Virus record (IMG/VR): IMGVR_UViG_3300045978_000056
Coordinates: 1-42,352 of that record
DNA length: 42,352 nt
Strand: one strand, 5' to 3'
Origin: a virus
This document shows positions 3,875 to 18,728 of the stretch, piece after piece (within the stretch, counting starts at the first letter, position 1; each line of letters starts with the position of its first letter). A program made the translations under genes and the position numbers. A model generated the notes under the pieces. It saw nothing but the letters and a program-made list of their open reading frames with translations. It was not told the DNA's origin and made no database searches.

Positions 3875-3986
3875 GTGTTGATGAACTTTTGGTCTAGCTG
3901 ACTTGGAAGGGATGGATGTTAGTGTTTTTGTAGTTGTGATTTTGGATCATCCTAGGGGGTGGGTACGATCCTTTAACATAATCAAT

Positions 3987-4014
3987 CCTTAATCTCTCCT
4001 TAATAATCCTTAAT
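3987..4014 (+). repeat. Three phased CCTTAAT repeats in an AT-rich stretch
   Basis: CCTTAAT occurs at 3987-3993, 3998-4004 and 4008-4014. The spacing of 10-11 bp is one helical turn. The surrounding 3860-4147 stretch has no credible gene and is clearly A/T-rich compared with the rest of the window. A CATAAT-5-ATTATG dyad follows at 4021-4037. Phased iterons beside an AT-rich segment are typical of replication origins. The role is inferred. Confidence 0.55.
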
Positions 4015-4147
4015 CATTAACATAATCCCTCATTATGTAGTCCATGTATATAATCACCCCGTACTGTCCCTCCTGTTAACATAACGTGTCAGGCACATTA
4101 TGGTAAATCGTGTACTAAATAAAAATCCTGTTGCACAAAAGCCACAA

Positions 4148-4197
4148 GGGGTGTGGCTTTTACACCACACCCCCGCGCCGCGTGGCTTTTACGCCAC
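4148..4197 (-). terminator. Tandem hairpins at the end of the small leftward gene
   Basis: One hairpin has 9-bp arms: GGGGTGTGG at 4148-4156 pairs with CCACACCCC at 4165-4173. A second, GTGGC at 4182-4186 with GCCAC at 4193-4197, has the stop codon of the 4189-4455 gene in its loop. Read leftward, the big stem is followed by TTGTGGCTTTTG, a weak T-run. A terminator for the small gene is the simplest reading. The paired arms could also be protein-binding sites. Confidence 0.55.
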
Positions 4198-4455
4198 AAT
4201 TACGTAGGCGTTTTTGATAAGCCACTTGACCCACTTGTGGGCCGGTTCGGACTTGGGCGCCTTGCTAGGCCCGCTGGGGCCAATGGCGACCGCCGCCGCA
4301 TACCATGCCTGCACTGGCTGGCCGACGTGGGCGGCTGCCAGCGCAAGCCACGCGGCCCGGTCGGACGCGCCTTTGAACTGGCCCTTTACTTCGGCCACGG
4401 TGCCCCCGAAAACGTGGGCGGGGGCGGCAACTTCGGCTGTGTTAACTTCGGACAT
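4189..4455 (-). CDS. Small protein in the control region, unknown function
   Basis: This 88-residue protein starts at ATG 4455 with AAGGTG seven bases upstream. It is Ala-rich (VAAPAHVFGGTVAEVKG, WLALAAAHVGQPVQAW) and ends in a basic, aromatic segment AHKWVKWLIKNAYVIVA. I do not recognise a family. It is the only gene in the 1.5-kb control region, is transcribed towards terS, and is flanked on both sides by the 23-bp dyad repeats. It is therefore a reasonable candidate for a DNA-binding regulator or origin protein. That role is inferred from position only. Confidence 0.6.
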   Translation of the reverse strand: MSEVNTAEVAAPAHVFGGTVAEVKGQFKGASDRAAWLALAAAHVGQPVQAWYAAAVAIGPSGPSKAPKSEPAHKWVKWLIKNAYVIVA

Positions 4456-4478
4456 GCTACACCTTTTGGTTTGCTGCC

Positions 4479-4534
4479 GTGGCACACCATGCACCGCGGC
4501 AGTGGTGCAAATATAGGCGTATTGCCGCGGCAAT
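4479..4534 (-). promoter_or_regulatory. Leader hairpins upstream of the small leftward gene
   Basis: Arms CTGCCGTGG and CCGCGGCAG (about 4479-4507) can form a 9-bp stem. A perfect 14-bp palindrome, ATTGCCGCGGCAAT, lies at 4521-4534. Both are between the gene start at 4455 and the nearest dyad repeat. I find no promoter here matching the TTGC/17-bp pattern. A TATATT box lies between them on the minus strand but has a poor -35. Confidence 0.4.
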
Positions 4535-5006
4535 AAAATAAGTGCAAATACGTATTTACATGCCATAGCTATTGTGTTATTTGCGCGTGCCCGTGCGCCA
4601 TGCAAGTTGCGTGCCAAGATGCGCAGCCCACCTATAGCTAACATAATGTGGTAGCTACATTATGGTAAATGACATAGTTGGCATGGATTTTGCATGTTTT
4701 TGGGTTGGCACGATTTTTGCAACGCGCGTGCGCGCCTGCGCGCCTGCGCGCGAGATTACATAATGTGGCAGGCACGTTATGGTAAATGATGGAGCGACGC
4801 CGCGCACGAGCGAGCGACGTGCGCGAGCGGGCGAGTCAGGACTCTCGGATGTACGCGGTCTGGCTCTAAAACTCGAGATTACATAATGTGTCTAGCACGT
4901 TACGTAATCTGGGAGGGTCCTGGCGGGAGTTCTGTGAACAGGGGGTAGACTCTGAGAGCTTCTGGGGTGGTGACCATCTGCTAAGATCTCCAAACAGCCG
5001 CATTTT
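4535..5006. other. Non-coding stretch of the control region
   Basis: I see no credible gene here. It holds three of the 23-bp dyad repeats. Between them are very GC-rich runs made of GCGC, CGCCTG and GAGCGA units (about 4725-4755 and 4790-4840). The part at 4905-5000 shows no structure I can name. Confidence 0.6.
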
Positions 5007-5249
5007 CCGTGCCACTACCCCCTCCGCGACAGTAGGGGTGTGCCACTAGAGCATCCGTGCCACTAGGACCACAACATTTTACATAATACTAATCACTCTT
5101 CTATGAGTCATTTGAGCCACTTGCCGTGTAAAGATGGATATTTAAGTGGCACGGAGTGGCACGGATTAAAAAGAGCCTTACAAAACAACAACTTAGAGTG
5201 TGCCACTAGAAAATCTAAGTGGCACGGCGAGTGACACGGAGTGGCACGG
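5007..5249. repeat. Nine-copy array of the CCGTGCCACT motif
   Basis: Forward copies (YGTGCCACTA) are at 5007, 5038, 5055 and 5198. Reverse-complement copies (AGTGGCACGG, one with GA) start at 5145, 5155, 5218, 5230 and 5240. Two reverse pairs are spaced exactly 10 bp, and the 5198 and 5218 copies form an inverted pair across AAAAT. The array ends about 19 bp before the -35 of the first rightward promoter. This looks like a multi-site operator or an origin iteron array. No gene covers it. Confidence 0.82.
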
Positions 5250-5267
5250 ACAACGACCATCTTTTGC

Positions 5268-5296
5268 TTGCTCCCGCCCGCAGACCCGCGTACAAT
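5268..5296 (+). promoter_or_regulatory. First rightward early promoter
   Basis: -35 TTGCTC (5268-5273), 17-bp spacer, -10 TACAAT (5291-5296). It lies directly downstream of the nine-copy repeat array. The predicted transcript starts near 5303. Its leader contains a hairpin, ATTGCC-AAT-GGCAAT (5323-5337), ending three bases before the GGAG site. Confidence 0.72.
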
Positions 5297-5350
5297 TCTC
5301 GCGTGGTGTACCAAAATCCCACATTGCCAATGGCAATACAGGAGTGTAGA

Positions 5351-5551
5351 GTGAAGACGTTGAAACTTGATGTACAGATGGTGCTGGACATAGTCCAAGC
5401 CCTGGAGATCCGTAGGCATCAGTCTATGGACAAGGCCAACAAGTTCCTGAACCAGGGACAGTTGGACATCGCGGCCCACTTCCAGAACGCAGCCCGAATC
5501 GCACAGGCAGCGCTCACGGAAATTGAGCGGCAAACGGGGGTCAAGCTGTGA
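5351..5551 (+). CDS. Small early protein, unknown function
   Basis: This 66-residue protein is the first gene of the rightward module. I chose GTG at 5351 because GGAG lies at 5341-5344, six bases upstream, and because longer in-frame starts fall inside the promoter and repeat array. The product is mostly helical and mildly charged (LDVQMVLDIVQALEIRRHQS, NKFLNQGQLDIAAHFQNAAR). No family is recognised. Its stop overlaps the start of the next gene (GTGA), so translation is probably coupled. Confidence 0.7.
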   Translation: MKTLKLDVQMVLDIVQALEIRRHQSMDKANKFLNQGQLDIAAHFQNAARIAQAALTEIERQTGVKL

Positions 5552-5670
5552 AGGCTCTCCTCTTAATTCTGGCTGCCATCTTGCTCGGTGGCTGCGCGAC
5601 CCACAACCCCTCCGGCGGGTACATCCCAGCCTGTGAGGATCTTCCTGGCTTACTCGGAGATGATTGCTAA
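5548..5670 (+). CDS. Small early lipoprotein
   Basis: This 40-residue protein starts at GTG 5548, overlapping the preceding stop by four bases. The N-terminus is a lipoprotein signal: one Lys, a hydrophobic run (ALLLILAAIL) and the lipobox LGGC with Cys16. The mature part is only 25 residues and has two more Cys. It would be exported and lipid-anchored. Small early phage lipoproteins can act in superinfection exclusion, but nothing here proves that role. TAATG overlap links it to the next gene. Confidence 0.75.
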   Translation: MKALLLILAAILLGGCATHNPSGGYIPACEDLPGLLGDDC

Positions 5671-5822
5671 TGAATGGAGCTAAATCGTTTGGACCGTTCC
5701 GCCTGCGATGGGGGAACGAAAATGCAGTGGACGGCTCGCCCATCCCATTCTACTTTGAGATTCTCTGGTGGCCTCGCAAGGGCTGGCCGCGCATGATCTT
5801 CAGCAACTACACCGGCGAGTAA
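5670..5822 (+). CDS. Small early protein, unknown function
   Basis: This 50-residue protein has its ATG at 5670 overlapping the preceding TAA by one base. It is rich in Trp, Phe and Pro (FGPFRLRWGN, IPFYFEILWWPRKGWPR), with no signal or transmembrane pattern. It is not recognised. It is the last gene before a strong terminator, so 5351-5822 forms a three-gene early unit. Confidence 0.62.
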   Translation: MNGAKSFGPFRLRWGNENAVDGSPIPFYFEILWWPRKGWPRMIFSNYTGE

Positions 5823-5836
5823 ATAGAGCCCTCCGA

Positions 5837-5870
5837 GACCCTCTCCTACTTGCGTGGGAGGGGGTCTTTT
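5837..5870 (+). terminator. Intrinsic terminator with a promoter -35 in its loop
   Basis: An 11-bp stem (5837-5847 with 5856-5866, two G-U pairs) is followed by TTTT at 5867-5870. The loop 5848-5855 reads ACTTGCGT and contains the -35 box of the next promoter. It ends the first three-gene unit. Confidence 0.82.
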
Positions 5871-5903
5871 GCTATTATGCGAATTGGCGGGGCATGGTGC
5901 CCC
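5850..5903 (+). promoter_or_regulatory. Early promoter and leader hairpin
   Basis: -35 TTGCGT (5850-5855), 17-bp spacer, -10 TATTAT (5873-5878) preceded by TGC (extended -10). The leader forms a perfect 6-bp hairpin, GGGGCA-TGG-TGCCCC (5889-5903), one base before the GGAG site (5905-5908) of the next gene. A nearly identical hairpin occurs at 6557-6569. Confidence 0.78.
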
Positions 5904-5919
5904 TGGAGTTAGTCAAGAT

Positions 5920-6252
5920 ATGAAAGATTCAAACTGGTACGTGGCGCACGATTGCTTGGGGATTGGGTGCTGGTTGAGCAAGGCGGAGTTTAAGCAGACC
6001 CGCAAGCCGGAGGAACTCGGGGAGTACGAACATCCGGCCAACATTTACGAATTGGTGATCGATACCACCAAGGACTTTGAGGATGCCAAGACCTTTAGCG
6101 AGCTGGAGGCTAGGCTGATCGTAAAGCACCTGGAGCGCCAACTGCTGGAGCGGGTCATGCGGGAGCATGGCGGCAACCTGGACTACCTCAGCAATTACGG
6201 ACTGTGGGAGTGCTTTACGCCGACCCAGTCCCCCACCGACGTTACGGAGTAA
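5920..6252 (+). CDS. Early protein of unknown function
   Basis: This 110-residue acidic protein starts at ATG 5920, with GGAG eleven bases upstream, which is slightly long. Features include WYVAHDCLGIGCWLSKAEF near the N-terminus and two amphipathic helices (FSELEARLIVKHLERQLLE, RVMREHGGNLDYL). No family is recognised. It forms a two-gene unit with 6256-6477 under the promoter at 5850-5878. Confidence 0.75.
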   Translation: MKDSNWYVAHDCLGIGCWLSKAEFKQTRKPEELGEYEHPANIYELVIDTTKDFEDAKTFSELEARLIVKHLERQLLERVMREHGGNLDYLSNYGLWECFTPTQSPTDVTE

Positions 6253-6255
6253 ATC

Positions 6256-6477
6256 ATGTACTACGAGATTCGTGTTACGCTTAAAGATGGCCAGACGGTG
6301 TCGGTACTGCAGACCCACCAGGAGCAAAAGGATGCAGTCTGGGCCATGCTGATGGCTATTGACGAATCCAACCCGGACGTATTCAAGAAGTGCGAGGTGC
6401 TCAAGCGCCGAGCATTCCAGGCGTTAGGGGAGGGTGAGGTGGTCCAGGAGTACCCGGCCGAGGGTTCCATGGGCTGA
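6256..6477 (+). CDS. Small early protein, unknown function
   Basis: This 73-residue protein starts at ATG 6256 with GGAG in the tail of the preceding gene. MYYEIRVTLKDGQTVSVLQT suggests a beta-hairpin, followed by helices (DAVWAMLMAIDES, FKKCEVLKRRAFQAL). It may be a small alpha/beta domain. No family is recognised. It is followed by a hairpin whose loop holds the next promoter's -35. Confidence 0.75.
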   Translation: MYYEIRVTLKDGQTVSVLQTHQEQKDAVWAMLMAIDESNPDVFKKCEVLKRRAFQALGEGEVVQEYPAEGSMG

Positions 6478-6501
6478 CCGCCCCCAACTGATTGGTCCAT
6501 T

Positions 6502-6569
6502 GCGACCCGGTCTTGCTTGCGCAGGACTGGGTCGCTTGCTATACTGCTCACTTAGCGGGCATGGTGCCC
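6502..6569 (+). promoter_or_regulatory. Hairpin-embedded early promoter and leader hairpin
   Basis: An 11-bp stem (6502-6512 with 6525-6535, one G-U pair) follows the upstream gene without a clear T-run. Its loop 6513-6524 contains the -35 TTGCGC (6517-6522). After a 17-bp spacer comes -10 TATACT (6540-6545), preceded by TGC. The leader forms GGGCA-TGG-TGCCC (6557-6569), just before GGAG at 6572-6575. Confidence 0.78.
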
Positions 6570-6584
6570 TTGGAGTAGATCGCA

Positions 6585-6956
6585 ATGTTCTCATTCAAAG
6601 CCTTTGTCGCAGATGCCTGGGACGGTTCCATGCACTTCGACGATCCTACCTACGCATTCCTGGACCACACCCACGCGGAAATCAGCAAGCTCTACGAGCA
6701 GCTCCCCGTTCGGTACGTTTGCCAGCGAGTCTTCAACGCGACGGTGTGGGCCGACTACGCTCGGTTTACCAACGAGTTCTCTTACGACCCAATCATTGCC
6801 CTCGTGGAGGCCTGCACCGCCGGTAGCGCCGATCTCTCGGGCTACAGCGATCCAGAGTGCGAAGTCACCGACGAGGTCGATCAGCAGTTCCGTAAGCTCT
6901 GCTACCATCTGCGGAACTTCACGGGAATCCTCGAAGCTCACGGCAGGTACGCTTAA
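6585..6956 (+). CDS. Early protein of unknown function
   Basis: This 123-residue protein starts at ATG 6585, nine bases after GGAG. It is acidic, with several aromatic residues (FVADAWDGSMHFDDPTYAFL, DPIIALVEACTAGS) and a helical C-terminus (DEVDQQFRKLCYHLRNFTGI). No motif is recognised. Its stop codon shares the palindrome TTAA (6953-6956) with the stop of the convergent primase-helicase gene, leaving no room for a terminator between them. Confidence 0.75.
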   Translation: MFSFKAFVADAWDGSMHFDDPTYAFLDHTHAEISKLYEQLPVRYVCQRVFNATVWADYARFTNEFSYDPIIALVEACTAGSADLSGYSDPECEVTDEVDQQFRKLCYHLRNFTGILEAHGRYA

Positions 6957-8851
6957 CGGATCTTCTGCCAACGCCGAGTTCCGCCACTCCTAATTCGCTG
7001 GTATCCTAGTTTCGCTAGGATACCAGCGATTTCTTTTGTCTTGTATGCGTCTTGGTAGCGATCTGCCATCCCGAGATATGCGAGCACATCTCGCATCGTA
7101 AATGAGTCTCTGCCGGCCTGCTCTACCTTTTCTGTGAACTCTATTACCTGCTCTTCCATCACATTTGGGACCACATACTCCTCTGCCATCATAGAGGCGT
7201 TGCGGACTTCCCAATACTCGGTTGCATCAGTCTGGTACAGGAACCATGCCTCTGCCCAGAGCATGGGAACTTCGATCTCTAGCGCAGCGAAATCAAGAAG
7301 TCTTGGGACTTCCATGATTGCGTAGCGTCTATAACCAGATGGATCATACACCAGGAAGTCGTGGCGGTTGCCGGAACCGTAGAGCACGCACCGACGCCCA
7401 TGCTCTTCTATGACACTCCCATAGGGCGGACGGTATCGGTCTATTGGCGTAGTGATCATCGCCTTTAGGAACGAAGCTTCGCGTTTCCCGAAGCTGTCTA
7501 GCTCGTCGAACCCAATGCAGAGCGCACTATGGATCTTCATGTGTAGGTCTTTGTCATTGTCTGAGCCGTACAGGATCAGGTTATTTTCCCGGAACATCAC
7601 TGATGGCATTGACGTCTTACCAGTTCCCTGAGGTCCCACCGTTATGAGCATCCAGTCTACCTTGGTCCCTGGACAGTCCATACGCGCGCACGCAGACACG
7701 AGCCACTTAGTCGCTATTTCGCGGATGTACTCTGAATCTTCGACACCCCAAAGTCTCTGAGGCCACGTTTCGAGTCTAGGCGTGCCATCCCAAGCGTGAG
7801 CCTTGACCCAATTCAGAAACGGGGACGTCTCGTTTTTCTTGCTCTGTGCGCGGATTATATCCCGCACCAACCGATAGTGGACCTTATCAAACCCTAGATT
7901 GTGTTGCAGATAGTTCGCAAGTTCCATTTCCGTAGAGTCTGGAATGATAATGTTCTCTCCTACCATGATCCGGTTTGTGTCTGCATTATTCCAGATCTTT
8001 GGAAATGCTGGATGTTTCTCTATCAGCTTTGTGATATTCGAGGAGTGCTGATATGGGACGCGCATCCCTTTGCTCGTGATACTAAACGCGAGATCGTAAA
8101 GCTCTATGAGTTGGTCGCCTGTCTGGTTTAGCTCTGTAGGTGCGATTCGTGGGAGGTCAAAGAATTGTGTGAGCGTTCCGCCCATGACCAGCCAATCGTC
8201 TATCTTTTCATCTAGCCTAATGATCTCAACATTACATCCTTGCTGAATGAGAGCATGGGCCAGATTCCCATAAGCGCGGGCGATGTCGAACCGCATAACA
8301 TCAGCATCCGGAATAAGAATGATTCTCTTGCCCTTCGTAGCGTCGAGTATCCACGGATGCACGTCGAGTGTCTTACCCCATGTCCAGCATCCTCCTATTC
8401 CGATTGCGTCTAGTCCTAAATGTTTGATCACCGCAACGGTCTTTTTCTCTCCTTCGCAAATGCAGATTACGTCACCATCTCGTTTGTACGGAGGGAAGTA
8501 CGGAGTACTGCCCGTCAGTCCATGCGCCTGGAGTTGTTCGGTCGAGGGTTGGGTGTATCGCTGACACTCCGTGAATGGCTTGGGCCGAAGTCGCACCCGA
8601 TACATAAGCGGATATCGCTCTGTATCCACGATAGGTTGACCATCTGGATCGAAATAGGGAATCACGTAACCGCCAAGAGCCTCCTTAGGAATCTTTACCA
8701 TGCCGCCGACATACGTGTAGAGGTCTTCTGGACTCAGCCCGGAACGAGCAAGGTCTTCCTCCATGAATTCTTCAATTCCTGTTCTGCCAAGGAACGAGGA
8801 ACGGGGAGGAATCTTAAACGGCCGGAAGCCCACGATCTTATCGCGACTCAT
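6953..8851 (-). CDS. Primase-helicase (Toprim-like N-terminus, VirE/SF3-like helicase C-terminus)
   Basis: This 632-residue enzyme is predicted to unwind DNA and prime synthesis at the fork. Start ATG 8851 has AAGGA eight bases upstream; longer frames lack a site. Residues ~120-230 match a DUF3854/Toprim-type domain: VICICEGEKKTVAVIKHLGL has the Toprim Glu and IILIPDADV the acidic pair. The C-terminal half resembles the VirE-like P-loop family: Walker A GPQGTGKT near residue 405, Walker B SALCIGFDELD, and a sensor-type SGYRRYAIMEV. It is the only leftward gene in the rightward module and has its own promoter (8895-8923). Confidence 0.87.
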   Translation of the reverse strand: MSRDKIVGFRPFKIPPRSSFLGRTGIEEFMEEDLARSGLSPEDLYTYVGGMVKIPKEALGGYVIPYFDPDGQPIVDTERYPLMYRVRLRPKPFTECQRYTQPSTEQLQAHGLTGSTPYFPPYKRDGDVICICEGEKKTVAVIKHLGLDAIGIGGCWTWGKTLDVHPWILDATKGKRIILIPDADVMRFDIARAYGNLAHALIQQGCNVEIIRLDEKIDDWLVMGGTLTQFFDLPRIAPTELNQTGDQLIELYDLAFSITSKGMRVPYQHSSNITKLIEKHPAFPKIWNNADTNRIMVGENIIIPDSTEMELANYLQHNLGFDKVHYRLVRDIIRAQSKKNETSPFLNWVKAHAWDGTPRLETWPQRLWGVEDSEYIREIATKWLVSACARMDCPGTKVDWMLITVGPQGTGKTSMPSVMFRENNLILYGSDNDKDLHMKIHSALCIGFDELDSFGKREASFLKAMITTPIDRYRPPYGSVIEEHGRRCVLYGSGNRHDFLVYDPSGYRRYAIMEVPRLLDFAALEIEVPMLWAEAWFLYQTDATEYWEVRNASMMAEEYVVPNVMEEQVIEFTEKVEQAGRDSFTMRDVLAYLGMADRYQDAYKTKEIAGILAKLGYQRIRSGGTRRWQKIR

Positions 8852-8894
8852 GAGTAGCATCCTTGGGGAAGATATACCAACCGCTTGAAGGGTC

Positions 8895-8923
8895 ATTATA
8901 CCACATCCCGAAGTCTCATGCAA
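8895..8923 (-). promoter_or_regulatory. Promoter of the primase-helicase gene
   Basis: On the minus strand: -35 TTGCAT (8923-8918), 17-bp spacer, -10 TATAAT (8900-8895), preceded by TGG (extended -10). It has the best -10 in the window. It is divergent from the promoter at 8945-8973, with 21 bp between the two -35 boxes. Confidence 0.85.
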
Positions 8924-8944
8924 CAGGGAAAGACCATCTAGAGC

Positions 8945-8973
8945 TTGCATTCGTAGCTAGGATATGCTATCAT
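8945..8973 (+). promoter_or_regulatory. Early promoter for the 9001 gene
   Basis: -35 TTGCAT (8945-8950), 17-bp spacer, -10 TATCAT (8968-8973), preceded by TGC. Transcription would start near 8980, about 20 bases before the ATG. I see no clear leader hairpin here. Confidence 0.75.
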
Positions 8974-9000
8974 GGGTTTTTGGCAAGCTGGAGAAAAACT

Positions 9001-9147
9001 ATGATCGTCGCATTGTATATTGTCTCAGGGATTGTCATTGTGCTCGCGCTTCTCTATCTTCTCGGGATACACGTAGCGGAGGAATTCGAGCGCCACGACT
9101 TCAAGGTACGGCAGGAGGAAGAAGAATTCCGGGATTGGGGGGATTGA
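9001..9147 (+). CDS. Small single-span membrane protein
   Basis: This 48-residue protein starts at ATG 9001 with GGAG about nine bases upstream. Residues 2-24 (IVALYIVSGIVIVLALLYLL) form one strong transmembrane helix. The remainder is highly charged and acidic (VRQEEEEFRDWGD), so the C-terminus is probably cytoplasmic. It is a single-gene unit with its own promoter. The function is unknown. An early, self-contained inner-membrane peptide could modify host membrane functions or exclude other phages, but this is only inferred. Confidence 0.78.
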   Translation: MIVALYIVSGIVIVLALLYLLGIHVAEEFERHDFKVRQEEEEFRDWGD

Positions 9148-9155
9148 CCAATCAG

Positions 9156-9203
9156 TTATTGCCTCGCCAATAATCTATAGCTATACTGGCCTAGTGGTAA
9201 GGC
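9156..9203 (+). promoter_or_regulatory. Early promoter with stem-loop at the -35 and a short leader hairpin
   Basis: -35 TTGCCT (9159-9164), 17-bp spacer, -10 TATACT (9182-9187), preceded by AGC. The -35 overlaps a 6-bp hairpin, TTATTG (9156-9161) with CAATAA (9168-9173). The leader can form GCCT/AGGC (9189-9192 with 9200-9203) directly before TTGGAG. Confidence 0.72.
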
Positions 9204-9214
9204 TTGGAGTTGTT

Positions 9215-9514
9215 ATGAATCAGTTTATGGTCCCTTTGTCCGCCTTTGAGTTCCTCTTTGCTTACGTCGGCGGTAGCGTTGACGAATCTGCGGGCATCAA
9301 CCCTGTGGAATGGGAGAAACTCGGGGCTGATCACGAAGTTCTACAGCAGGATGCTATTGATGCAGAAACTCAGCTGCGTCAAGGCTGCAAGGATGCGCGC
9401 GAGGCATGGGATGCAGGATGCACAGCCTGCGATTCCATGCCGGAAAATGCGCCAGAATCATGGGAACCGTCGGTGTTTCCTCTGGCGTTTCGTATTTCCA
9501 ATTCCTACTTTTAA
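9215..9514 (+). CDS. Early protein of unknown function
   Basis: This 99-residue protein starts at ATG 9215 with GGAG five bases upstream. The N-terminus is hydrophobic-aromatic (FMVPLSAFEFLFAYVGG), but not a clear signal or membrane span. The middle is acidic and helical (ADHEVLQQDAIDAETQLRQG) and contains three Cys (GCKDAREAW, GCTACDS). No family is recognised. It leads a five-gene unit up to 10592. Confidence 0.72.
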   Translation: MNQFMVPLSAFEFLFAYVGGSVDESAGINPVEWEKLGADHEVLQQDAIDAETQLRQGCKDAREAWDAGCTACDSMPENAPESWEPSVFPLAFRISNSYF

Positions 9515-9524
9515 GGAGTAATCA

Positions 9525-9713
9525 GTGCGCTACGAAGTTCAAGTTATGGGTCCGCATTCGGAGGGATCTCGCAAGTACGAGAACCTCCCGGCGGCGGAAA
9601 TCGCTTATGGCGAGGCAGTGAGCCACGCCCGTCGCAACCCCACTGGAGACGTCAGGGAAGTCTATCTCCACGACCTGCAGGAAAGCATCACCCTGAGGTC
9701 TTACAACCCGTGA
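9525..9713 (+). CDS. Small early protein, unknown function
   Basis: This 62-residue protein starts at GTG 9525, seven bases after AAGGAG. It looks like a small alpha/beta domain: a strand (MRYEVQVMG), a helix (AAEIAYGEAVSHARRN) and a strand (VREVYLHDL). Its stop overlaps the next start by four bases (GTGA). It is not recognised. Confidence 0.72.
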   Translation: MRYEVQVMGPHSEGSRKYENLPAAEIAYGEAVSHARRNPTGDVREVYLHDLQESITLRSYNP

Positions 9714-9982
9714 CTATCAAGTACAAGAAAGCTTCCGTCGCCTTTAAGGACGATCGGAACACTGTCTCTACTCTGCAGGTCGGCTACATAATCCTTTGGA
9801 CAGAAGAGGATTATGAGGTTACGGTGTTTTCCTCTAATCCGACCGATGGCGGAACGGAGGAATTCATTGCACGGTTTTTCTCCGAAGACCCTCAGTTGGC
9901 AGAAAAGCGAGTGGATGAAATCATCCGCTGCGAACTACTCGGGGAATGCAAGAGCATGGTGGAAATCAAGGAGATGTTGTGA
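9710..9982 (+). CDS. Small early protein, unknown function
   Basis: This 90-residue protein starts at GTG 9710 in a GTGA overlap with the previous stop, so translational coupling is likely. It combines a beta-rich first half (VSTLQVGYIILWTEEDYEVT) with an acidic helical second half (AEKRVDEIIRCELLGECKSM). No known motif is seen. The next ATG overlaps its TGA. Confidence 0.72.
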   Translation: MTIKYKKASVAFKDDRNTVSTLQVGYIILWTEEDYEVTVFSSNPTDGGTEEFIARFFSEDPQLAEKRVDEIIRCELLGECKSMVEIKEML

Positions 9983-10335
9983 TGGGCCTCTTACTCGTAA
10001 TTAAGCCAGATGGTACAGAAGTCGCTGTGCCTGCTAAGAAACTCAGCATACCGGACCTATATCCATTGATCGGCAATGGATGCACCTGCGTGACCCGCGT
10101 GAGGGTTCGCTACAATGGTCGTATGCGCGACCTGTGGCTGGACGATAACGGATGGATCAAGCGCAACGTCGCTAATCCGAAGCTGCGGAAGCTCTACGCT
10201 GAATCCCACAAGGTTCCTCTGGAAGAAGTCCAGGAATTTGCCGGGACTGGCGTTATCTGGGATCCCAGCTTCAAGGAACCAGCAGAGAGCCGTGACCCGG
10301 CCCACAATCCTAAAACAGGGGAAATTGAACTATGA
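9982..10335 (+). CDS. Early protein of unknown function (possible DUF3846-type)
   Basis: This 117-residue protein starts at ATG 9982, eight bases after AAGGAG and overlapping the previous TGA. It opens with LLLVIKPDGTEVAVPA and has VRVRYNGRMRDLWLDDNGWI followed by NPKLRKLYAE. The opening and the strand-rich middle recall phage proteins of the DUF3846 type, but the match is weak. The C-terminus is Pro-rich and charged. An ATGA overlap joins it to the next gene. Confidence 0.75.
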   Translation: MGLLLVIKPDGTEVAVPAKKLSIPDLYPLIGNGCTCVTRVRVRYNGRMRDLWLDDNGWIKRNVANPKLRKLYAESHKVPLEEVQEFAGTGVIWDPSFKEPAESRDPAHNPKTGEIEL

Positions 10336-10592
10336 GCCTGGTGATAACGATCTCTAACGCCCTGGATGGTGAAGTGCACGAGATCCTGTATACGGACGAA
10401 AAGTTGGAGGACATCCTCCACGCCATCAACGTCAGCCTTGCAGTCTTTGAAACGAAGGAGGAGCTCGACTACGCGAACGCCGTGGCCGACGAACCCCAAG
10501 ACGATATGACCGACGTAGAGGCAGATGCGGATACGCTGAAATCAGCCGGCATGGGAACTGACGAGGACTACGGGTATTATCCCGAAGAGTAA
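10332..10592 (+). CDS. Acidic early protein, unknown function
   Basis: This 86-residue, strongly acidic protein starts at ATG 10332, overlapping the previous stop. The N-terminal half looks folded (MSLVITISNALDGEVHEILY, EDILHAINVSLAVF). The C-terminal half is a low-complexity Asp/Glu-rich tail ending DEDYGYYPEE. Acidic early phage proteins sometimes mimic DNA, but no motif supports that here. Confidence 0.7.
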   Translation: MSLVITISNALDGEVHEILYTDEKLEDILHAINVSLAVFETKEELDYANAVADEPQDDMTDVEADADTLKSAGMGTDEDYGYYPEE

Positions 10593-10599
10593 AAAGAGC

Positions 10600-10650
10600 T
10601 TGCTCCATACCCGCTCCATAGCTATGCTATGCGTGCGGGTATGGTGCTCG
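10600..10650 (+). promoter_or_regulatory. Early promoter inside a 10-bp inverted repeat
   Basis: -35 TTGCTC (10600-10605), 17-bp spacer, -10 TATGCT (10623-10628), preceded by AGC. The arms CCATACCCGC (10605-10614) and GCGGGTATGG (10635-10644) enclose the -10. The right arm can alternatively form the leader hairpin CGGGTA-TGG-TGCTCG (10636-10650), before AGGAG at 10655. Read-through and newly started RNAs would therefore fold differently. Confidence 0.68.
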
Positions 10651-10667
10651 CGTTAGGAGAAACTCAA

Positions 10668-10877
10668 ATGTTGGAAGTTCAGTGCCCGAATTGCGGGAAG
10701 GTCTACACCCCCGAGCTGGCGAAAGACCAGAGCTTTAACCAGAAGTTCACGGAGTGGCAGAAAGGTACGCTCGTTCAGCGTGTCTGGCCCCACGCCAAGC
10801 CGATTGAACGCGAGCAATTGCAGACCGGTATCTGCTCTGACGATTGCTGGAACAAGTTCCTGGGGGTTGAGGAATGA
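10668..10877 (+). CDS. Small zinc-ribbon-like protein
   Basis: This 69-residue protein starts at ATG 10668, eight bases after AGGAG. CPNCGK near the N-terminus and CSDDC near the C-terminus give a four-cysteine zinc-binding set, as in small zinc ribbons. The middle (FNQKFTEWQKGTLVQRVWPH) is basic and helical. The function is unknown; binding to nucleic acid or to host polymerase is plausible for this fold. ATGA overlap with the next gene. Confidence 0.75.
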   Translation: MLEVQCPNCGKVYTPELAKDQSFNQKFTEWQKGTLVQRVWPHAKPIEREQLQTGICSDDCWNKFLGVEE

Positions 10878-11047
10878 CACCTCGCCGACACTACTACGTC
10901 GTGGTAGTGCAGACCAGAGTAGGGGTGAAGATTGTGGGCGACTGGAGGGGTCGCCCATTCCCTACCATCCTTAAAGCGGAGGCGGCGGGAGCTTCTCTCA
11001 ATCTCCCTGATTCAGCGTGGCACGTCGCCCCAATCGAGAAAGGATGA
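10874..11047 (+). CDS. Small basic protein, unknown function
   Basis: This 57-residue protein starts at ATG 10874 in an ATGA overlap with the zinc-ribbon gene. It has a beta strand (RRHYYVVVVQTRVGVKIVG), then a basic loop (DWRGRPFPTILKAEAA). It is not recognised. Its stop overlaps the next start, so three genes are chained by overlapping codons. Confidence 0.65.
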   Translation: MTPRRHYYVVVVQTRVGVKIVGDWRGRPFPTILKAEAAGASLNLPDSAWHVAPIEKG

Positions 11048-11205
11048 TGTACGATCGACCATTTCCGGACAATGTGGAAGATTTTGAGGACGAAGAAGAT
11101 TACTTTGATTATCTTGGGAGCAAAAAGAACTTGCAATCCATAGCTACGGATGCTATCATAGCTAAAGTGGCAATTTCGCCACGTAGGAGCAAGCATGTCA
11201 AATAA
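11044..11205 (+). CDS. Small acidic-basic protein, unknown function
   Basis: This 53-residue protein starts at ATG 11044 (or 11047) with AAGG just upstream. Residues 8-22 are very acidic (DNVEDFEDEEDYFD) and the C-terminus is basic (SPRRSKHVK). The promoter at 11131-11159 and its leader hairpin lie inside the second half of the coding sequence, and the end overlaps the next gene by 11 bases. Because of that, the C-terminal half may be constrained as DNA or RNA rather than as protein. Confidence 0.55.
   Translation: MMYDRPFPDNVEDFEDEEDYFDYLGSKKNLQSIATDAIIAKVAISPRRSKHVK
11131..11182 (+). promoter_or_regulatory. Early promoter and leader hairpin
   Basis: -35 TTGCAA (11131-11136), 17-bp spacer, -10 TATCAT (11154-11159), preceded by TGC. 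The leader forms GTGGC-AATTTC-GCCAC (11167-11182), just before AGGAG at 11185-11189. The spacer itself holds ATCC/GGAT arms. Confidence 0.78.
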
Positions 11206-11485
11206 GATTCTGGTACAGTTTCCTAGCTATGTCTGGCTTGAATTGCCAACGGCAATGATCCAAGCTATCGCTAATTCCAACGCATACGATTACGACTACG
11301 AAACCCAGACGTTCTACCGTGCGGAGGATATCTGCGGGCGCATGGAACTCAAGGTTGCTGACGGTAAGAAGTTCAGCACCATGACCCGTCAGCAATACAG
11401 GAACGAGCAGGAATTGCTCAAGGCGCAGCAGGAAGCCGATAACCAGAGGGATAATGATGAGTCCACCGAAACCCAGGAGATCTAA
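11195..11485 (+). CDS. Early protein of unknown function
   Basis: This 96-residue protein starts at ATG 11195, five bases after AGGAG. The first 45 residues are hydrophobic-aromatic (FPSYVWLELPTAMIQAIANS, YDYDYETQTFYRAEDI). The C-terminal third is a Gln/Glu/Asp-rich helical tail. No motif is recognised. The next gene's ribosome site lies in its last codons. Confidence 0.75.
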   Translation: MSNKILVQFPSYVWLELPTAMIQAIANSNAYDYDYETQTFYRAEDICGRMELKVADGKKFSTMTRQQYRNEQELLKAQQEADNQRDNDESTETQEI

Positions 11486-11486
11486 A

Positions 11487-11813
11487 ATGCCGCGTCGCAT
11501 GAACAGCCAGAAAGACGTGTTCGAAGCAGTCCGCAAAACATTCCAAAGCGGTGTGATATTCACTCCAATGGATATCGAAGCGGAAGACATGACCCCCAAG
11601 CAAATCAGCAATGCTCTGGGCCACCTCGCTCGCAAGGGTGTGGTCAAGCGGGGGCCGATCAAGGGCCAGTTCTACGTGAACGGTTCCATGGGCCTCCCAC
11701 CGCAGCCCATCAACCCAGCTCAGGCCATCTACGACCTGCTCGAGTTCATGGCTAAGGCGGAGGCACCGCTCAAGCGAGCGGCACGCATCCTCGAGGCGGT
11801 GGACAAGGCATGA
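11487..11813 (+). CDS. Putative winged-helix DNA-binding protein
   Basis: This 108-residue protein starts at ATG 11487, seven bases after AGGAG. Residues ~5-63 fit a winged helix: helix (SQKDVFEAVRKTFQ), turn (MTPKQISNALGHLARKG) as the recognition region, and wing (VVKRGPIKGQFYVNG). The C-terminal part is a helix (IYDLLEFMAKAEAPLKRAAR). It may regulate phage or host transcription. The assignment is by pattern only. Its TGA overlaps the start of a 47-residue gene (ATGA). Confidence 0.65.
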   Translation: MPRRMNSQKDVFEAVRKTFQSGVIFTPMDIEAEDMTPKQISNALGHLARKGVVKRGPIKGQFYVNGSMGLPPQPINPAQAIYDLLEFMAKAEAPLKRAARILEAVDKA

Positions 11814-11953
11814 AGGACTACAGGCGCAGGGAAGATCGCCTGTACCTTGCGAGGCGTCGGACAGGATTAGTCCGGCGCCTCGCCTTTTACACGATTTTCC
11901 ATCTCGGTTTATTCGCATTCTTTTATCACTATTGGAGCGTAGCTACGTCATGA
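11810..11953 (+). CDS. Possible 47-residue membrane peptide encoded across a terminator
   Basis: The reading frame opens at ATG 11810 in an ATGA overlap with the upstream gene and closes at TGA 11951-11953 in an ATGA overlap with the downstream gene. That double coupling favours a real gene. The N-terminus is very basic (MKDYRRREDRLYLARRR) and the C-terminus hydrophobic (LAFYTIFHLGLFAFFYHYW), as in a small membrane peptide. The strong terminator at 11849-11888 lies inside it and can alone explain the sequence, so the gene is uncertain. Confidence 0.4.
   Translation: MKDYRRREDRLYLARRRTGLVRRLAFYTIFHLGLFAFFYHYWSVATS
11849..11888 (+). terminator. Intrinsic terminator
   Basis: GCGAGGCG pairs with CGCCTCGC and, after one T-G position, CGGAC pairs with GTCCG. 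This makes about 14 bp with a 7-base loop (AGGATTA), followed by CTTTT at 11884-11888. A smaller hairpin, CAGGCG/CGCCTG (11821-11842), precedes it. Confidence 0.72.
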
Positions 11954-12609
11954 ATACAGCAGTCGCTGTCGTTACTTTGGACTGGTCTGAGGCCGATGCG
12001 GCCTATCGCAAGGGCCAGATGTCTTACGTGGAATTCGGGCAGGCTCTGGACCGGCTCGTCAAGGCGGGGGCGACCCAAGAGGAAATCGCCGGACGCTACG
12101 ATATGTCGCAGCCTTCGGTGAGCACGGCCATCGCGGTAGCCACTGATCGGCGGGTGCTCGGCTATATCGCCAGCGGGAAGGAGCTGCCCATCGGCCGCAA
12201 GTCGCTGTACCTGCTGACGACGCTGGACGATAAGGGTTTCGAAGAACTCGCCAAGCCCGACACTACCCGCGTACAGATTGAGGAATACAAGCGTCGTTTG
12301 ATCCCGCCGCTTCGTCAGCCGGTGGTTCCTCCCAAGGCTGCGACCGAAGGCAACATCCTCGAGCAGGAAGAAGAGCAAAAGGACAAACCCAAGAAGGAAG
12401 TGAAGCCTTCGTACGAAAAAGACCTTGTCTGGGCGTTCGCCTATATGGGGATCCAGGTGAATGGGGATGTCATGCCCCGTATCGCCAAGGGCGCGCTGGA
12501 TGCAATCTACAAGGTGCTGATCACCAAGTACCAGGAAAGTATGGATGCTTCTGTTGATCTCAATCAGGCTTACCAGATTCTGATCAGCAATGCTGAGTGG
12601 GTGAGATGA
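11950..12609 (+). CDS. HTH protein related to ParB/KorB-type DNA-binding domains
   Basis: This 219-residue protein starts at ATG 11950, with GGAG 12 bases upstream. Residues ~38-65 form a clear helix-turn-helix, GATQEEIAGRYDMSQPSVST, with the spacing seen in ParB/Spo0J/KorB HTH domains. A Pro/Glu/Lys-rich linker (EEEQKDKPKKEVKP) leads to a C-terminal helical domain (DLVWAFAYMGIQVNGDV). No ParB N-terminal CTPase motif is visible. It is a strong candidate for the factor that binds one of the repeat arrays at 4.0-5.25 kb, as an origin or regulatory protein. That link is inferred. Confidence 0.72.
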   Translation: MNTAVAVVTLDWSEADAAYRKGQMSYVEFGQALDRLVKAGATQEEIAGRYDMSQPSVSTAIAVATDRRVLGYIASGKELPIGRKSLYLLTTLDDKGFEELAKPDTTRVQIEEYKRRLIPPLRQPVVPPKAATEGNILEQEEEQKDKPKKEVKPSYEKDLVWAFAYMGIQVNGDVMPRIAKGALDAIYKVLITKYQESMDASVDLNQAYQILISNAEWVR

Positions 12610-12821
12610 AGAAGGATCACAGTAACCTCCAACGATACGTTCTGGTGGTCTCAGACCCAAAAGGAAGGGTCTGGGTCACCGGGACAGAAACGCAGCGGGG
12701 ATTTACTGAAACTGGTGCAGATCAGGCCCTCGTGGTATGCTCACAAAGCCTACCACGAGGATGGTCTTGCCAAGTCAAAGAGCTCTTCCCCATAGGGGAT
12801 TTGCTTGCAATTCGCCGCTGA
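12606..12821 (+). CDS. Small protein, unknown function
   Basis: This 71-residue protein starts at ATG 12606, overlapping the preceding TGA. The pattern is beta-rich (RYVLVVSDPKGRVWVTGTET, WSCQVKELFPIGDLLAIRR) with one helix in between. No family is recognised. The promoter of the next gene overlaps its last codons. Confidence 0.68.
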   Translation: MKKDHSNLQRYVLVVSDPKGRVWVTGTETQRGFTETGADQALVVCSQSLPRGWSCQVKELFPIGDLLAIRR

Positions 12822-12833
12822 CTATGGTACAAT
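12805..12833 (+). promoter_or_regulatory. Promoter for the 12859-13945 genes
   Basis: -35 TTGCAA (12805-12810), 17-bp spacer, -10 TACAAT (12828-12833), preceded by TGG (extended -10). The leader is short (start near 12840) and leads straight to AAGGAG. No leader hairpin is evident. Confidence 0.8.
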
Positions 12834-12858
12834 ATTTCTCGGGTGTAAAAAGGAGCAA

Positions 12859-13239
12859 ATGCAAGTGGATGAAATCTATAATATCATGGATGCGGCCAGA
12901 ATCAAGGAAACAGAGCGCCTTGAACTGGACCGCCAGAGCAAGAAGCTCAAGAAGGAAGAAGATGATCTGAAAGCTCTACTTATCCAGCGGCTGAATTCCT
13001 TGGGCCTGCGTGAACTGACCCATAACGGATTCGCAGCTGTGATTAGCCAGAACCAGAAACCGTACATCGTGGATTTTGAGGCCCTCGAGCAGTACGTGAT
13101 TGATAATAAGGCATTGGATCTTCTACAAAAGCGCCTCACCGAAACTGCTGTAAAGGACCGATGGGGGAATGGTGTCGCTATTCCTGGCATCGGCGTTATG
13201 ACCGAAGACAAACTGAAATTCGTACCTCGGAGAAGCTAA
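12859..13239 (+). CDS. Conserved phage replication-region protein, function unknown
   Basis: This 126-residue protein starts at ATG 12859, four bases after GGAG. Residues ~10-50 form a charged coiled coil (KETERLELDRQSKKLKKEED). A compact C-terminal part follows: YIVDFEALEQYVIDNKALDL, LLQKRLTETAVKDRWGNG and VAIPGIGV. This layout is familiar from hypothetical proteins next to single-strand-binding or recombination genes of podophages. Binding or protecting replication intermediates is possible but not shown. Confidence 0.75.
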   Translation: MQVDEIYNIMDAARIKETERLELDRQSKKLKKEEDDLKALLIQRLNSLGLRELTHNGFAAVISQNQKPYIVDFEALEQYVIDNKALDLLQKRLTETAVKDRWGNGVAIPGIGVMTEDKLKFVPRRS

Positions 13240-13240
13240 A

Positions 13241-13945
13241 ATGACTGAAAACCTGCCAGTTTCCTGGGAAGATCAGATGAAGGCGGACGCTAAGTCCCAG
13301 CTGATTAACGAACGCCCGCCCCTCAGCCTGATGTCCCTTAAGAGCGGCCAGATGTCCATTGGTGGGGAAGCGGTCCCCGGCAATGAGCTGCTCGCCATTA
13401 TCGTCGCCAACGCGACAGAGAATGCGTGGTTCCCCAACCGCTACGATCCCAACAAGCGTGAGAATCCCGCCTGCTACGCCATCGGCGAGGGAAAGGCTGT
13501 GGACCTCGTGCCGTACGAGGAATCTACGGACAAGCAGGCTGAGCGCTGCGCGATTTGTCCCAAGTTTGAGTGGGGCAGCGATCCCAACGGTGGTCGCGGG
13601 AAGGCGTGCAAGGAAAAGCGCCGACTGGCAATGCTCCGCCCCGATGGTGGGGACGAACTCCTCCTTGTTTCTATTCCTCCAACCTCCCTGAAGAATTGGT
13701 CTAATCATGTGGGGAAGGTGGTGGCGACTACCGGCATGAGCACGGCAGGCGTCGTTACCAAGATCAAGGTGGTGCCGAGCGCCAAGAACCAGTTCGAGGT
13801 TCAGTTCGAGATTGCGGGGCCAGTTCCCCAGGAATTTCTGCCAGCGATGGTAGCCAAGAAAGCAGATGCCATGAATATCATGCTCCAGCCCTATCCGGAA
13901 CTGGAGGATGACTTCGAAACACCTAAGAAGGATCGGAAGTACTGA
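13241..13945 (+). CDS. Putative ssDNA-binding-type replication protein with Cys cluster
   Basis: This 234-residue protein starts one base after the previous stop. Four Cys lie in PACYAIG, RCAICPKFEW and GKACKEKRR, suggesting a metal-binding insert. The C-terminal half is beta-rich (VTKIKVVPSAKNQFEVQFEI), compatible with an OB-like fold, and it ends in an acidic-basic tail (LEDDFETPKKDRKY). An acidic tail is typical of phage single-strand-binding proteins, though here it ends basic. The call rests on position just before DNA polymerase and on general pattern. Confidence 0.5.
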   Translation: MTENLPVSWEDQMKADAKSQLINERPPLSLMSLKSGQMSIGGEAVPGNELLAIIVANATENAWFPNRYDPNKRENPACYAIGEGKAVDLVPYEESTDKQAERCAICPKFEWGSDPNGGRGKACKEKRRLAMLRPDGGDELLLVSIPPTSLKNWSNHVGKVVATTGMSTAGVVTKIKVVPSAKNQFEVQFEIAGPVPQEFLPAMVAKKADAMNIMLQPYPELEDDFETPKKDRKY

Positions 13946-14004
13946 ATTCCTCCTGCGGGGAGGCGTAGGGCAAAGAGCTTTCTGCTTCCTTGTCAACCGT
14001 GTTT

Positions 14005-14026
14005 GCCGAGCGGTGCCCGAATCGGC
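14005..14026 (+). promoter_or_regulatory. Leader hairpin before the 14040 gene
   Basis: GCCGA (14005-14009) can pair with TCGGC (14022-14026), with a possible inner CGG/CCG pairing. It ends a few bases before AAGGAGG. This repeats the pattern of a small stem just upstream of a ribosome site, but I find no promoter of the TTGC type here. Confidence 0.45.
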
Positions 14027-14039
14027 TTAAGGAGGAATG

Positions 14040-14486
14040 ATGGACAATAAAATCTACGATGTACCCGACTGGGTAGATGTCGTGCGTTGGCGCGGTCAGA
14101 GATTCCGCCTGCTTGACCGATTAATTACTGACCTGCACCCGGAGCGCGCAGCCGATCAACCGGACCCTGCTCCAGACGACGAGGTGGCTGCGGAGCAGGA
14201 CACCGTGCAGCGGATGCGTGACCTTCTGCACGCCACGGCGAACGCGCTGCACGGCGGGTCGAGGCCGAATGGTTTGTGGTCATGGCATGACCTTCCGCTG
14301 ATTGCCCAGAAGCTATGGGTCGATGCGAATGGCGCGATCCAGCAGCGAACAGTGACAGCCAAGGAATTTTACGAACCACCGGCTCGCGATACGTGCCTGC
14401 CCGATTGCCCCGACGACTGCCCGTGCGACGGAACGGGTGCGCCGTTGATTGATGGCACACCGGACAAGCCCGCAGATGCGCCATGA
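14040..14486 (+). CDS. Protein of unknown function with Cys-rich C-terminus
   Basis: This 148-residue protein has GGAGG four bases before ATG 14040; the ATG at 14037 is too close. The middle is acidic (PDPAPDDEVAAEQDTVQRMR). One segment resembles phage proteins near the replication genes: NGLWSWHDLPLIAQKLW. The C-terminus has the cluster CLPDCPDDCPC, which may bind a metal, then a Pro/Asp-rich tail. It is not recognised. Confidence 0.7.
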   Translation: MDNKIYDVPDWVDVVRWRGQRFRLLDRLITDLHPERAADQPDPAPDDEVAAEQDTVQRMRDLLHATANALHGGSRPNGLWSWHDLPLIAQKLWVDANGAIQQRTVTAKEFYEPPARDTCLPDCPDDCPCDGTGAPLIDGTPDKPADAP

Positions 14487-14498
14487 ATAAGGAACGAT

Positions 14499-16298
14499 AT
14501 GATTACCCTAGATACAGAAACTGAGGAAATCATCGGCAACCCTATCGCGAATCCGCCGGCTGCTCACGGACTTGCATTCATCGTTCCTGGGTATCAGCCG
14601 GGGTATCTTCACTGGAGGACAGAAAAGGCGAATACGAAGTGGTCCATAGTTGCTGACTTCATTACACAGATTCTGAACAGCGGCGAGGATATTCTCTTCC
14701 ATCACGCCGCATTCGATATCTCCGTCCTAAAGGCGGAGTTTCCTATCTGCCCTTGGGATTTACTGAAGCCGGAGCGCGTGCATGACACGATGTTCCAGCT
14801 ATTCCTGGCAGATCCATATGCTAAGACTCTGTCACTCAAACCAAGTGCGGAGCGCTACCTCGGTGAACCACCCGAAGAACAGAACAAGATCAAGGCGTGG
14901 GTGCTCGCCAACGTCAAGACAAAGCCGAGCGAATGGGGAGCTCATATCGTAAAAGCCCCCATCAACATTATCGCACCCTACGCGATTGGCGACGTTAAGC
15001 GGACGCTCAAGATATATGAGCACTTCAAGGACAAGGTTCCGCAGGCACCGTATGACCGAGAGAGGCTTCTGCTTCCCATCCTCATGGAGAGCTCTAAACG
15101 AGGCCTGCGCGTGGCTAGGGGCGCCCTGACGACCTGTCTGGAACGCAGTATAGAGGCGCTGGGAGCAGCCGATAACTTGGCCCGTACCCACCTACAGGCA
15201 CCCGGTTTGGATGTCGCCAACCCGTCCGCGTTAATCCAGGCTCTAGAGCGTTCGGGAACTGTGGGACCTAATGATTGGGTCCGCACGCCCACGGGAGAAA
15301 AGAGCACCGCCAAGAACAATCTAGAAAAGGTGATTAAGGACAAATATCTTCTCGATATTCTCCGGTATCGCAGTTCACTCTCCACCTGTATCAGCACATT
15401 CATGTCAGGGTGGCTGGACCTATCCTCTAGCGATGGTCGTCTACATCCTGAGTGGAACCAAGTTAGGACTCATGAAAATGGGAACAGACATGGGACTCGT
15501 ACAGGCCGTCTATCGTGCAGTGGACCGAATTTGCAGAACGTACCGACGGAATTTGATCAAACGATTCCTGAGGGACTACCGCCGCTTCCACTCATGAGGG
15601 AATTCCTCTTACCGGAGGAAGGACACGTCTGGCTTAAGCGGGACTTCAGTAGCCAGGAAGTGAGGATTGCTGCACATTTCGAAGATGGTCCCTTACTCGC
15701 TGCCTACAAGGAAAATCCTAAGCTAGACCCGCACCAGATGGCGAAAGACCTAATCCTGGAAAAGTGCAACAAGGACTTTCCACGAAAGCACGTTAAGATC
15801 ACAGGCTTCCAAACTCTATACGGGGGCGGAGCTACTGCGATTAGCATCAATATCGGGTGCTCGTATACCGAGGGTGCCGAGTTTAAAGATGCCTATTTCA
15901 CAGCGATGCCTGGGATAAAGGACCTTATCGTTGATGTCTCCCGCCGGGGCAGAGCGAACCTGCCAATCACCACATGGGGAGGTAGACAGTACACACGGGA
16001 AGTGGATCCCAAGTACCCTGAACGAGACTTCAGCTACAAGCTCGTTAACTACCTGATTCAGGGCAGTGCGGCTGACCAGACAAAGCAGTGCATCATCGAC
16101 TGGAACCAAAGCAGATATCCACAATCTAGATTCCTTGCGACGGTGCATGACGAGATAAACATCAGTGCCCCCATTGAAGAATGGAGGGACCACATGGCTC
16201 ATCTCAAGGATGTTATGAATGAAGACAGGTTCGAAACGCCTATGGAATCTGAAGGCTTCATGGGACAAAACTGGCATGAAATCGAACAATGTGAGTAA
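14499..16298 (+). CDS. DNA polymerase, family A, with 3'-5' exonuclease
   Basis: This 599-residue enzyme replicates the phage genome. The proofreading domain shows Exo I LDTET at residues 4-8, Exo II FHHAAFD near 66-72 and Exo III YAIGDVKRT near 161-169. The polymerase domain shows motif A RDFSSQEVRIAAHF near 381, motif B KHVKITGFQTLYGG near 430 and motif C VHDEI near 548. No 5'-3' exonuclease domain is present, as in T7-type enzymes. ATG 14499 has AAGGAA upstream. It is the core of a replication block with the helicase and nuclease genes downstream. Confidence 0.97.
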   Translation: MITLDTETEEIIGNPIANPPAAHGLAFIVPGYQPGYLHWRTEKANTKWSIVADFITQILNSGEDILFHHAAFDISVLKAEFPICPWDLLKPERVHDTMFQLFLADPYAKTLSLKPSAERYLGEPPEEQNKIKAWVLANVKTKPSEWGAHIVKAPINIIAPYAIGDVKRTLKIYEHFKDKVPQAPYDRERLLLPILMESSKRGLRVARGALTTCLERSIEALGAADNLARTHLQAPGLDVANPSALIQALERSGTVGPNDWVRTPTGEKSTAKNNLEKVIKDKYLLDILRYRSSLSTCISTFMSGWLDLSSSDGRLHPEWNQVRTHENGNRHGTRTGRLSCSGPNLQNVPTEFDQTIPEGLPPLPLMREFLLPEEGHVWLKRDFSSQEVRIAAHFEDGPLLAAYKENPKLDPHQMAKDLILEKCNKDFPRKHVKITGFQTLYGGGATAISINIGCSYTEGAEFKDAYFTAMPGIKDLIVDVSRRGRANLPITTWGGRQYTREVDPKYPERDFSYKLVNYLIQGSAADQTKQCIIDWNQSRYPQSRFLATVHDEINISAPIEEWRDHMAHLKDVMNEDRFETPMESEGFMGQNWHEIEQCE

Positions 16299-18717: not shown

Positions 18718-18728
18718 CCAAAAACCGC

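Follow-up and report, generated by a model that had tools for sequence, protein, structure and literature searches.

In Cluster K mycobacteriophages, a short intergenic module termed ESAS precedes small genes and is scattered within one genome; it comprises a 15-17-bp imperfect inverted repeat lying over a sigma-70-like promoter (17-18 bp) and, after promoter and repeat, a conserved ribosome-site element (PMC3203893, PMC11373665). In Escherichia coli, the frd terminator is at the same time the ampC attenuator, with the ampC promoter located upstream, within the last frd gene (PMC6045580). Furthermore, bacterial RNA polymerase can stay on the DNA after intrinsic termination and restart at a promoter nearby in vitro (PMC6978380, PMC11347151, PMC6978322), and 85% of the major E. 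coli termination sites lie at most 1 kb from a start site (PMC11347151).

The DNA considered here, IMGVR_UViG_3300045978_000056, is a virus record of 42,352 bases (the whole analysed stretch is termed the window below) and, by its genes for portal, large terminase, primase/helicase, DNA polymerase, helicase, and amidase, derives from a tailed phage. We read the small plus-strand genes between a mostly noncoding stretch and the convergent primase/helicase gene as three cassettes, i.e., the genes up to 5822, those at 5920-6252 and 6256-6477, and that at 6585-6956. Sites 1 and 2 occupy the two joints, the former between the stop codon at 5822 and the start codon at 5920, the latter between the stop codon at 6477 and the start codon at 6585. 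The features, all on the plus strand, are as follows:

5835-5868, plus strand: site 1 hairpin, 15-bp stem (3 G·U pairs) and loop TTGC, followed by TTGCTATTAT (TTTTGCTATTAT after the GACCC/GGGTC core)
5850-5878, plus strand: promoter 1, TTGCGT-17-TATTAT, with TGC ahead of the -10
5889-5909, plus strand: leader hairpin 1, GGGGCATGGTGCCCC, with the ribosome-binding motif TGGAGT; the site 2 leader is alike
5920-6252, plus strand: first gene of cassette 1, 110 aa, without Pfam match
6256-6477, plus strand: second gene of cassette 1, 73 aa, without Pfam match
6502-6535, plus strand: site 2 hairpin, 15-bp stem (2 G·U pairs) and loop TTGC, followed by TTGCTATACT
6517-6545, plus strand: promoter 2, TTGCGC-17-TATACT, with TGC ahead of the -10
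6557-6576, plus strand: leader hairpin 2, GGGCATGGTGCCC, with the ribosome-binding motif TTGGAGT; the site 1 leader is alike
6585-6956, plus strand: gene of cassette 2, 123 aa, without Pfam match
6995-7029, plus strand: ordinary terminator closing cassette 2, 16-bp stem followed by TTTCTTTT, D=34.6
9159-9187, plus strand: promoter of the same family at the third site of the earlier note, without significant hairpin

Pfam gave a match for none of the six small proteins, a tRNA search of the window found none, and no Rfam match reached the gathering score. The strong plus-strand terminator at 6995-7029 overlaps the convergent primase/helicase ORF, being encoded within its 3' end; the C-terminus encoded by this ORF aligns to the related locus L084. 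Ahead of the cassettes, positions 3960-5250 are mostly noncoding and repeat-rich and contain a single small minus-strand ORF (4189-4644), relatives of which are found in L084 and in a further related locus, L094. This stretch, a candidate replication origin, carries inverted repeats of the type CATAAYGTG-N-CACRTTATG at 4080, 4759, and 4882 as well as six copies of GTGGCACGG on both strands (5007-5249); the CATAAYGTG-type repeat also occurs twice in L094, between the helicase and the terminase-side genes.

Among described systems, the ESAS is the nearest kind, since there, too, an intergenic promoter is overlapped by an inverted repeat and followed by a ribosome-site element. The geometry differs, however. 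At the ESAS of Adephagia gene 91, a 19-bp repeat contains the -35 box TTGACA in its left arm (boxes assigned here), the -10 falls at the spacer/right arm, and a separate terminator-like hairpin is found just upstream, whereas sites 1 and 2 carry the -35 core in the loop and the -10 outside the stem, and the hairpin itself is the terminator candidate; the gene-92 site in the same Adephagia stretch has merely a 6-bp exact arm. The SAS 13-mer GGGATAGGAGCCC matches the window once, with two mismatches (24277-24289; chance mean 1.08). The missing 13-mer together with the position of the -35 in a loop rather than an arm rules out membership in the ESAS/SAS family. The frd/ampC junction resembles the present sites in that one hairpin serves two neighbouring transcription units and adjacent operons overlap; there, however, the promoter precedes the hairpin, while here the -10 follows the stem and the transcript is predicted to start past it, which does not agree with an ampC-type attenuator. 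The templates described for the recycling experiments have a separate terminator and promoter, whereas bases are common to both here.

Phages also carry moron-like cassettes, in which one or more accessory genes absent from relatives come with their own promoter and terminator; the neighbouring cassettes described here, in contrast, have one merged terminator/promoter in common. Hairpin promoters such as those of the N4 virion polymerase and of F plasmid Frpo are read from single strands, with promoter elements within the hairpin duplex. Sites 1 and 2, with the -10 outside the stem, are not of this type, and the longest ORF listed in the window (798 aa) is far below the N4 virion polymerase in size. 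A terminator loop holding a -35 box was not found described in the titles and abstract openings of the open-licence literature, nor in the accessible part of the LUZ100 paper. We read the merged hairpin and promoter as a new form of overlapping terminator and promoter.

Site 1 reads GAGACCCTCTCCTAC-TTGC-GTGGGAGGGGGTCTT and continues with TTGC TATTAT; site 2 reads GCGACCCGGTCTTGC-TTGC-GCAGGACTGGGTCGC and continues with TTGC TATACT. The earlier note had placed 11-bp stems at 5837-5878 and 6502-6545, with the hexamers TTGCGT and TTGCGC in the loops; the hairpins are there, with stems that extend to 15 bp including G·U pairs, and the loops hold TTGC, the last two letters of each hexamer belonging to the 3' arm. 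Its placement of the -10 just after the stem is borne out (TATTAT, 5873-5878; TATACT, 6540-6545), as is the gene-ending position, both hairpins following a stop codon and both promoters preceding a start codon. Folded with short flanks as plus-strand RNA, site 1 reaches -27.3 kcal/mol (z -5.2) and site 2 -30.4 kcal/mol (z -6.4), with none of 200 dinucleotide shuffles folding as well in either case; RNA of the opposite strand folds more weakly (-19.9 kcal/mol, z -3.4, and -24.8 kcal/mol, z -5.7). Among 20,000 mononucleotide shuffles made from each intergenic stretch, none combined a stem of 12 bp or more with TTG at the loop and a correctly spaced TAnnnT. A third overlap had been proposed at 9156-9187. 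The TTATTG/CAATAA letters and the promoter are present, and the -35 begins in the arm, but the hairpin is absent, the fold being no better than that of shuffles (z +0.29; 115 of 200 fold as well), and the site was dropped. As anatomy, the proposed stop-and-restart module of about 40 bp is thus well supported at two sites, not at three.

The promoters at both sites belong to a family defined as TTGCnn-17-TAnnnT with at least four of the six letters of TATAAT. The plus strand of the window contains 12 such motifs, compared with a mean of 1.1 and a maximum of 5 in shuffled sequences (0 of 200 shuffles reach 12), and ten of the 12 are within the rightward region 5268-18729. At spacings of 15, 16, 18, and 19, TTGC/TAnnnT pairs number 0, 1, 0, and 0 on this strand; the minus strand has three family matches at spacing 17. 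Nine family promoters were folded, leaving out those at 5324, 29604, and 34746, which are probably chance matches. A hairpin over the -35 was found in two of the nine, namely at sites 1 and 2 (z -6.1 and -6.5 against mononucleotide shuffles), the other seven having z values between -0.7 and +0.9. Given the enrichment of TTGC at the 17-bp spacing and the hairpin in two of nine, the TTGC in the loops is the -35 core of this phage and the hairpin an optional addition. Although the -35 of sites 1 and 2 agrees with just three of six consensus letters, it is this enriched core, and both sites have the extended -10 of sigma-70 promoters (TGn-TAnnnT with a -35 at about 17 bp).

Several further elements accompany the family. 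Plus-strand leaders at 5268, 5850, 6517, 10600, 11131, and 18729 start with a short hairpin shortly ahead of the ribosome site. The palindrome TAGCTA, a possible operator with 18 occurrences in the window, is found in four family promoters (8954, 9178, 10619, 11141), twice in the spacer and twice reaching into the -10 (e.g., ATCCATAGCTACGGAT from 11136), and also near promoters of the relatives (L084 at 2543, 5486, and 5507; L094 at 3095). By eye, an inverted repeat CCATACCCGC ... GCGGGTATGG at 10600-10655 surrounds the family promoter TTGCTC-17-TATGCT; this repeat is formable in readthrough RNA only.

As for termination, both sites have, on the coding strand, a GC-rich hairpin that follows the end of a gene. 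The quality of the T-rich tail was rated with the d'Aubenton-Carafa score D, using the best of six stem trims. Site 1, with TTTTGCTATT, scores 24.5 and is, as judged from its sequence, a plausible intrinsic terminator; site 2 scores 5.3 and would be a marginal one, and two hairpins taken as coding-region controls score -36 and -59. The poor T-tract of site 2 may be the price of its -10.

The two modules have the TTGC loop, TTGCTAT after the stem, the leader hairpin, and the ribosome site in common, with different genes downstream, and they look like diverged copies. Although 11 of the 30 arm positions differ between them, each of the 15 pairs can still form, four being kept via two-sided changes and three via a one-sided change. 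In this single comparison of two copies without a phylogeny, the probability that 11 random substitutions keep every pair is 2e-5 under a simple null with equal base odds. The wobbles, three at site 1 and two at site 2, are G·U in plus-strand RNA and correspond to A·C on the opposite strand, a pattern that favours selection on RNA over selection on a cruciform.

The layout recurs elsewhere. Viral contigs were searched with the promoter core CTTGCG-N14-TTGCTATnnT, leaving the arms unspecified, which gave at least 120 stretches with 108 distinct sites; qualifying stems had at least 9 bp, at least four G-C pairs, and the -35 at the apex. Among the matches listed, eight of the 108 sites have stems of at least 9 bp, six of at least 10 bp, and four of at least 12 bp, compared with means of 0.52, 0.32, and 0.09 and maxima of 4, 2, and 2 when arms were exchanged between loci in 300 rounds. 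In bacteria, four of 116 sites among the matches listed qualify (permuted mean 0.36, maximum 3). The recurrence is one of layout, not always of detail: of the viral loops, that of L114 is an identical TTGC and that of L149 is CTTGC; in L107, L140, and L195, TTGC spans loop and arm; and in L106, L152, and L211, TTGC can pair atop the stem under a GAAA or GTAA loop, with only the end of the -35 hexamer in the loop. D is at least 7.5 in seven of the eight viral cases and at least 19 in six, with L195 at -1.8. A same-strand ORF of at least 80 aa ends 5-60 nt upstream in six of the eight, compared with 18 of the 100 listed sites without a hairpin (Fisher p 0.0014); with the L106 element, which follows a tRNA-Gly gene, seven of eight come after a gene or tRNA, and the eighth, L107, has just 42 nt of upstream sequence. 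Blastn (E up to 1e-5) among the eight loci and the window detected no DNA similarity except for 32 bp in L152 and L211. These 32 bp (L152 5838-5869, L211 4488-4519; 94% identity) are the terminator/promoter element itself in two otherwise dissimilar phage contigs; the element may move between phages as a small part. Of the bacterial sites, those of Lacticaseibacillus (16-bp stem, same TTGC loop, D 2.4) and Oscillibacter (D 17.6) are followed by a ribosome-site-like motif and start codon, which the other two lack. In a non-random phage sample of about 2.04 Mb, an extended -10 at most 12 nt past the stem was not clearly enriched after 262 T-tailed hairpins, pattern sites excluded (7 cases; 0 to 8 in the remaining 12-nt bins), so that the layout represents a minority solution rather than the rule.

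Among relatives of the phage, L004, L005, and L006 are the same phage and too alike for a comparison of conservation. Of 555 portal relatives, the best 80 were kept, and 78 of 83 loci were scanned, leaving out five copies of the same phage or window. A TTG/-10 pair over the hairpin apex was found 15 times among 847 hairpins of the 78 loci; two of these are sites 1 and 2 themselves in L004, and no further repeat of the finding is among them. A partial look-alike in L053 (4390) combines a T-rich-tailed hairpin with TTGGGT-17-CATTAT and folds with a 10-bp stem and a 9-nt loop; L009/L010 (14824) have a TTGC loop without a T-tail; the rest were judged unlike sites 1 and 2. The closest relatives found, L084 (polymerase 71% identical) and L094 (a 4.8-kb fragment; helicase 54%), keep the TTGC-17-TAnnnT promoter type; a helicase search against bacterial genomes found no relative. 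No orthologous site was found in L084, L094, or L085, and the five cassette proteins gave no tblastn match (E up to 0.01) in the partial stretches of L084, L094, L085, L087, and L012. The single plus-strand gene of L084 (2608-2943) is instead a relative of the minus-strand ORF 4189-4644 of the window (33% over 49 aa, E 3e-5). Exact stem and leader pattern searches matched only contigs of the same phage, and a scan of phage lambda gave no such site. In the relative L085, strong hairpins between early genes (6911-6938, 7427-7452, 8211-8238) stand directly ahead of ribosome sites, one of them, by eye, directly after a TTGC-17-TATACT promoter; they are possible attenuators.

The hairpin, the promoter motif and its 17-bp spacing, the gene borders, the pair-preserving divergence, and the recurrence can be read from the sequence, and we consider it probable that each site is a compact stop-and-restart element. 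Termination, initiation by the host sigma-70 RNA polymerase, and any coupling of both are what we infer from these features. Alternatively, the hairpins could stabilise 3' ends or act as RNase-processing stems in a longer early mRNA, with ordinary promoters whose overlap reflects crowding in a gap of about 100 bp. The near lack of a T-tract at site 2 speaks for this, as do the L085 hairpins, after which the filter used finds no promoter; however, D reaches 19 or more in six of the eight viral cases, and crowding predicts neither the exact TTGC in both loops nor the excess over permutation elsewhere, making this alternative rather unlikely.

Less weight still is given to a neutral origin, in which one accidental overlap was duplicated together with promoter and leader. 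Duplication as such is likely, given the similarity of promoter, leader hairpin, and ribosome site at both sites, and the nearest relatives have no such site; yet every pair was kept through the 11 arm changes since copying, and a like layout exists in phages without DNA similarity, so that we hold mere chance and copying to be quite improbable. Finally, control at the DNA level, by cruciform extrusion, as the earlier note had considered, or by a dimeric repressor bound to the inverted repeat and switching the promoter, seems scarcely credible: although long inverted-repeat arms surround the -35, single DNA strands can fold, and Cluster K mycobacteriophages have inverted repeats over promoters (PMC11373665), the arms are imperfect as DNA (3 and 2 non-Watson-Crick pairs), DNA single strands fold with modest energies, the best pairing is that of plus-strand RNA, and arms that diverge this much between the sites are unlike a binding site.

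In the favoured stop-and-restart reading, the transcript from the upstream cassette would fold the 15-bp hairpin while RNA polymerase enters the short T-tract, and hairpin and T-tract would end the message at site 1 and weakly end or trim it at site 2. The same 44 bp would carry the family promoter, with the loop as its -35 core and the bases past the stem as its extended -10 (TGCTATnnT), so that the next cassette would start about 10 bp beyond the upstream transcript's 3' end and a polymerase released at the hairpin would be positioned on the next promoter. Since the hairpin lies upstream of the promoter's own predicted start, its action would be limited to RNA arriving from upstream. A terminator arm, its T-tract, and GC add up to about 17 bp, which makes the merged geometry a natural one; a terminator with a TTG loop would therefore be one short step from a promoter. 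A bolder version, in which loop -35 terminators form a recurrent, independently evolved coupled class in phages and bacteria, released polymerase restarts preferentially on the next promoter, and one and the same recycled polymerase serves consecutive cassettes, is put forward as a speculation that we consider unlikely.

The sites indicate that stop and go signals can be packed naturally into about 44 bp with common bases, in phages without DNA similarity. Such merged elements may serve as compact parts for gene-stacking in laboratory constructs, and they would offer a natural substrate for asking whether cells make use of polymerase recycling after intrinsic termination in vivo.
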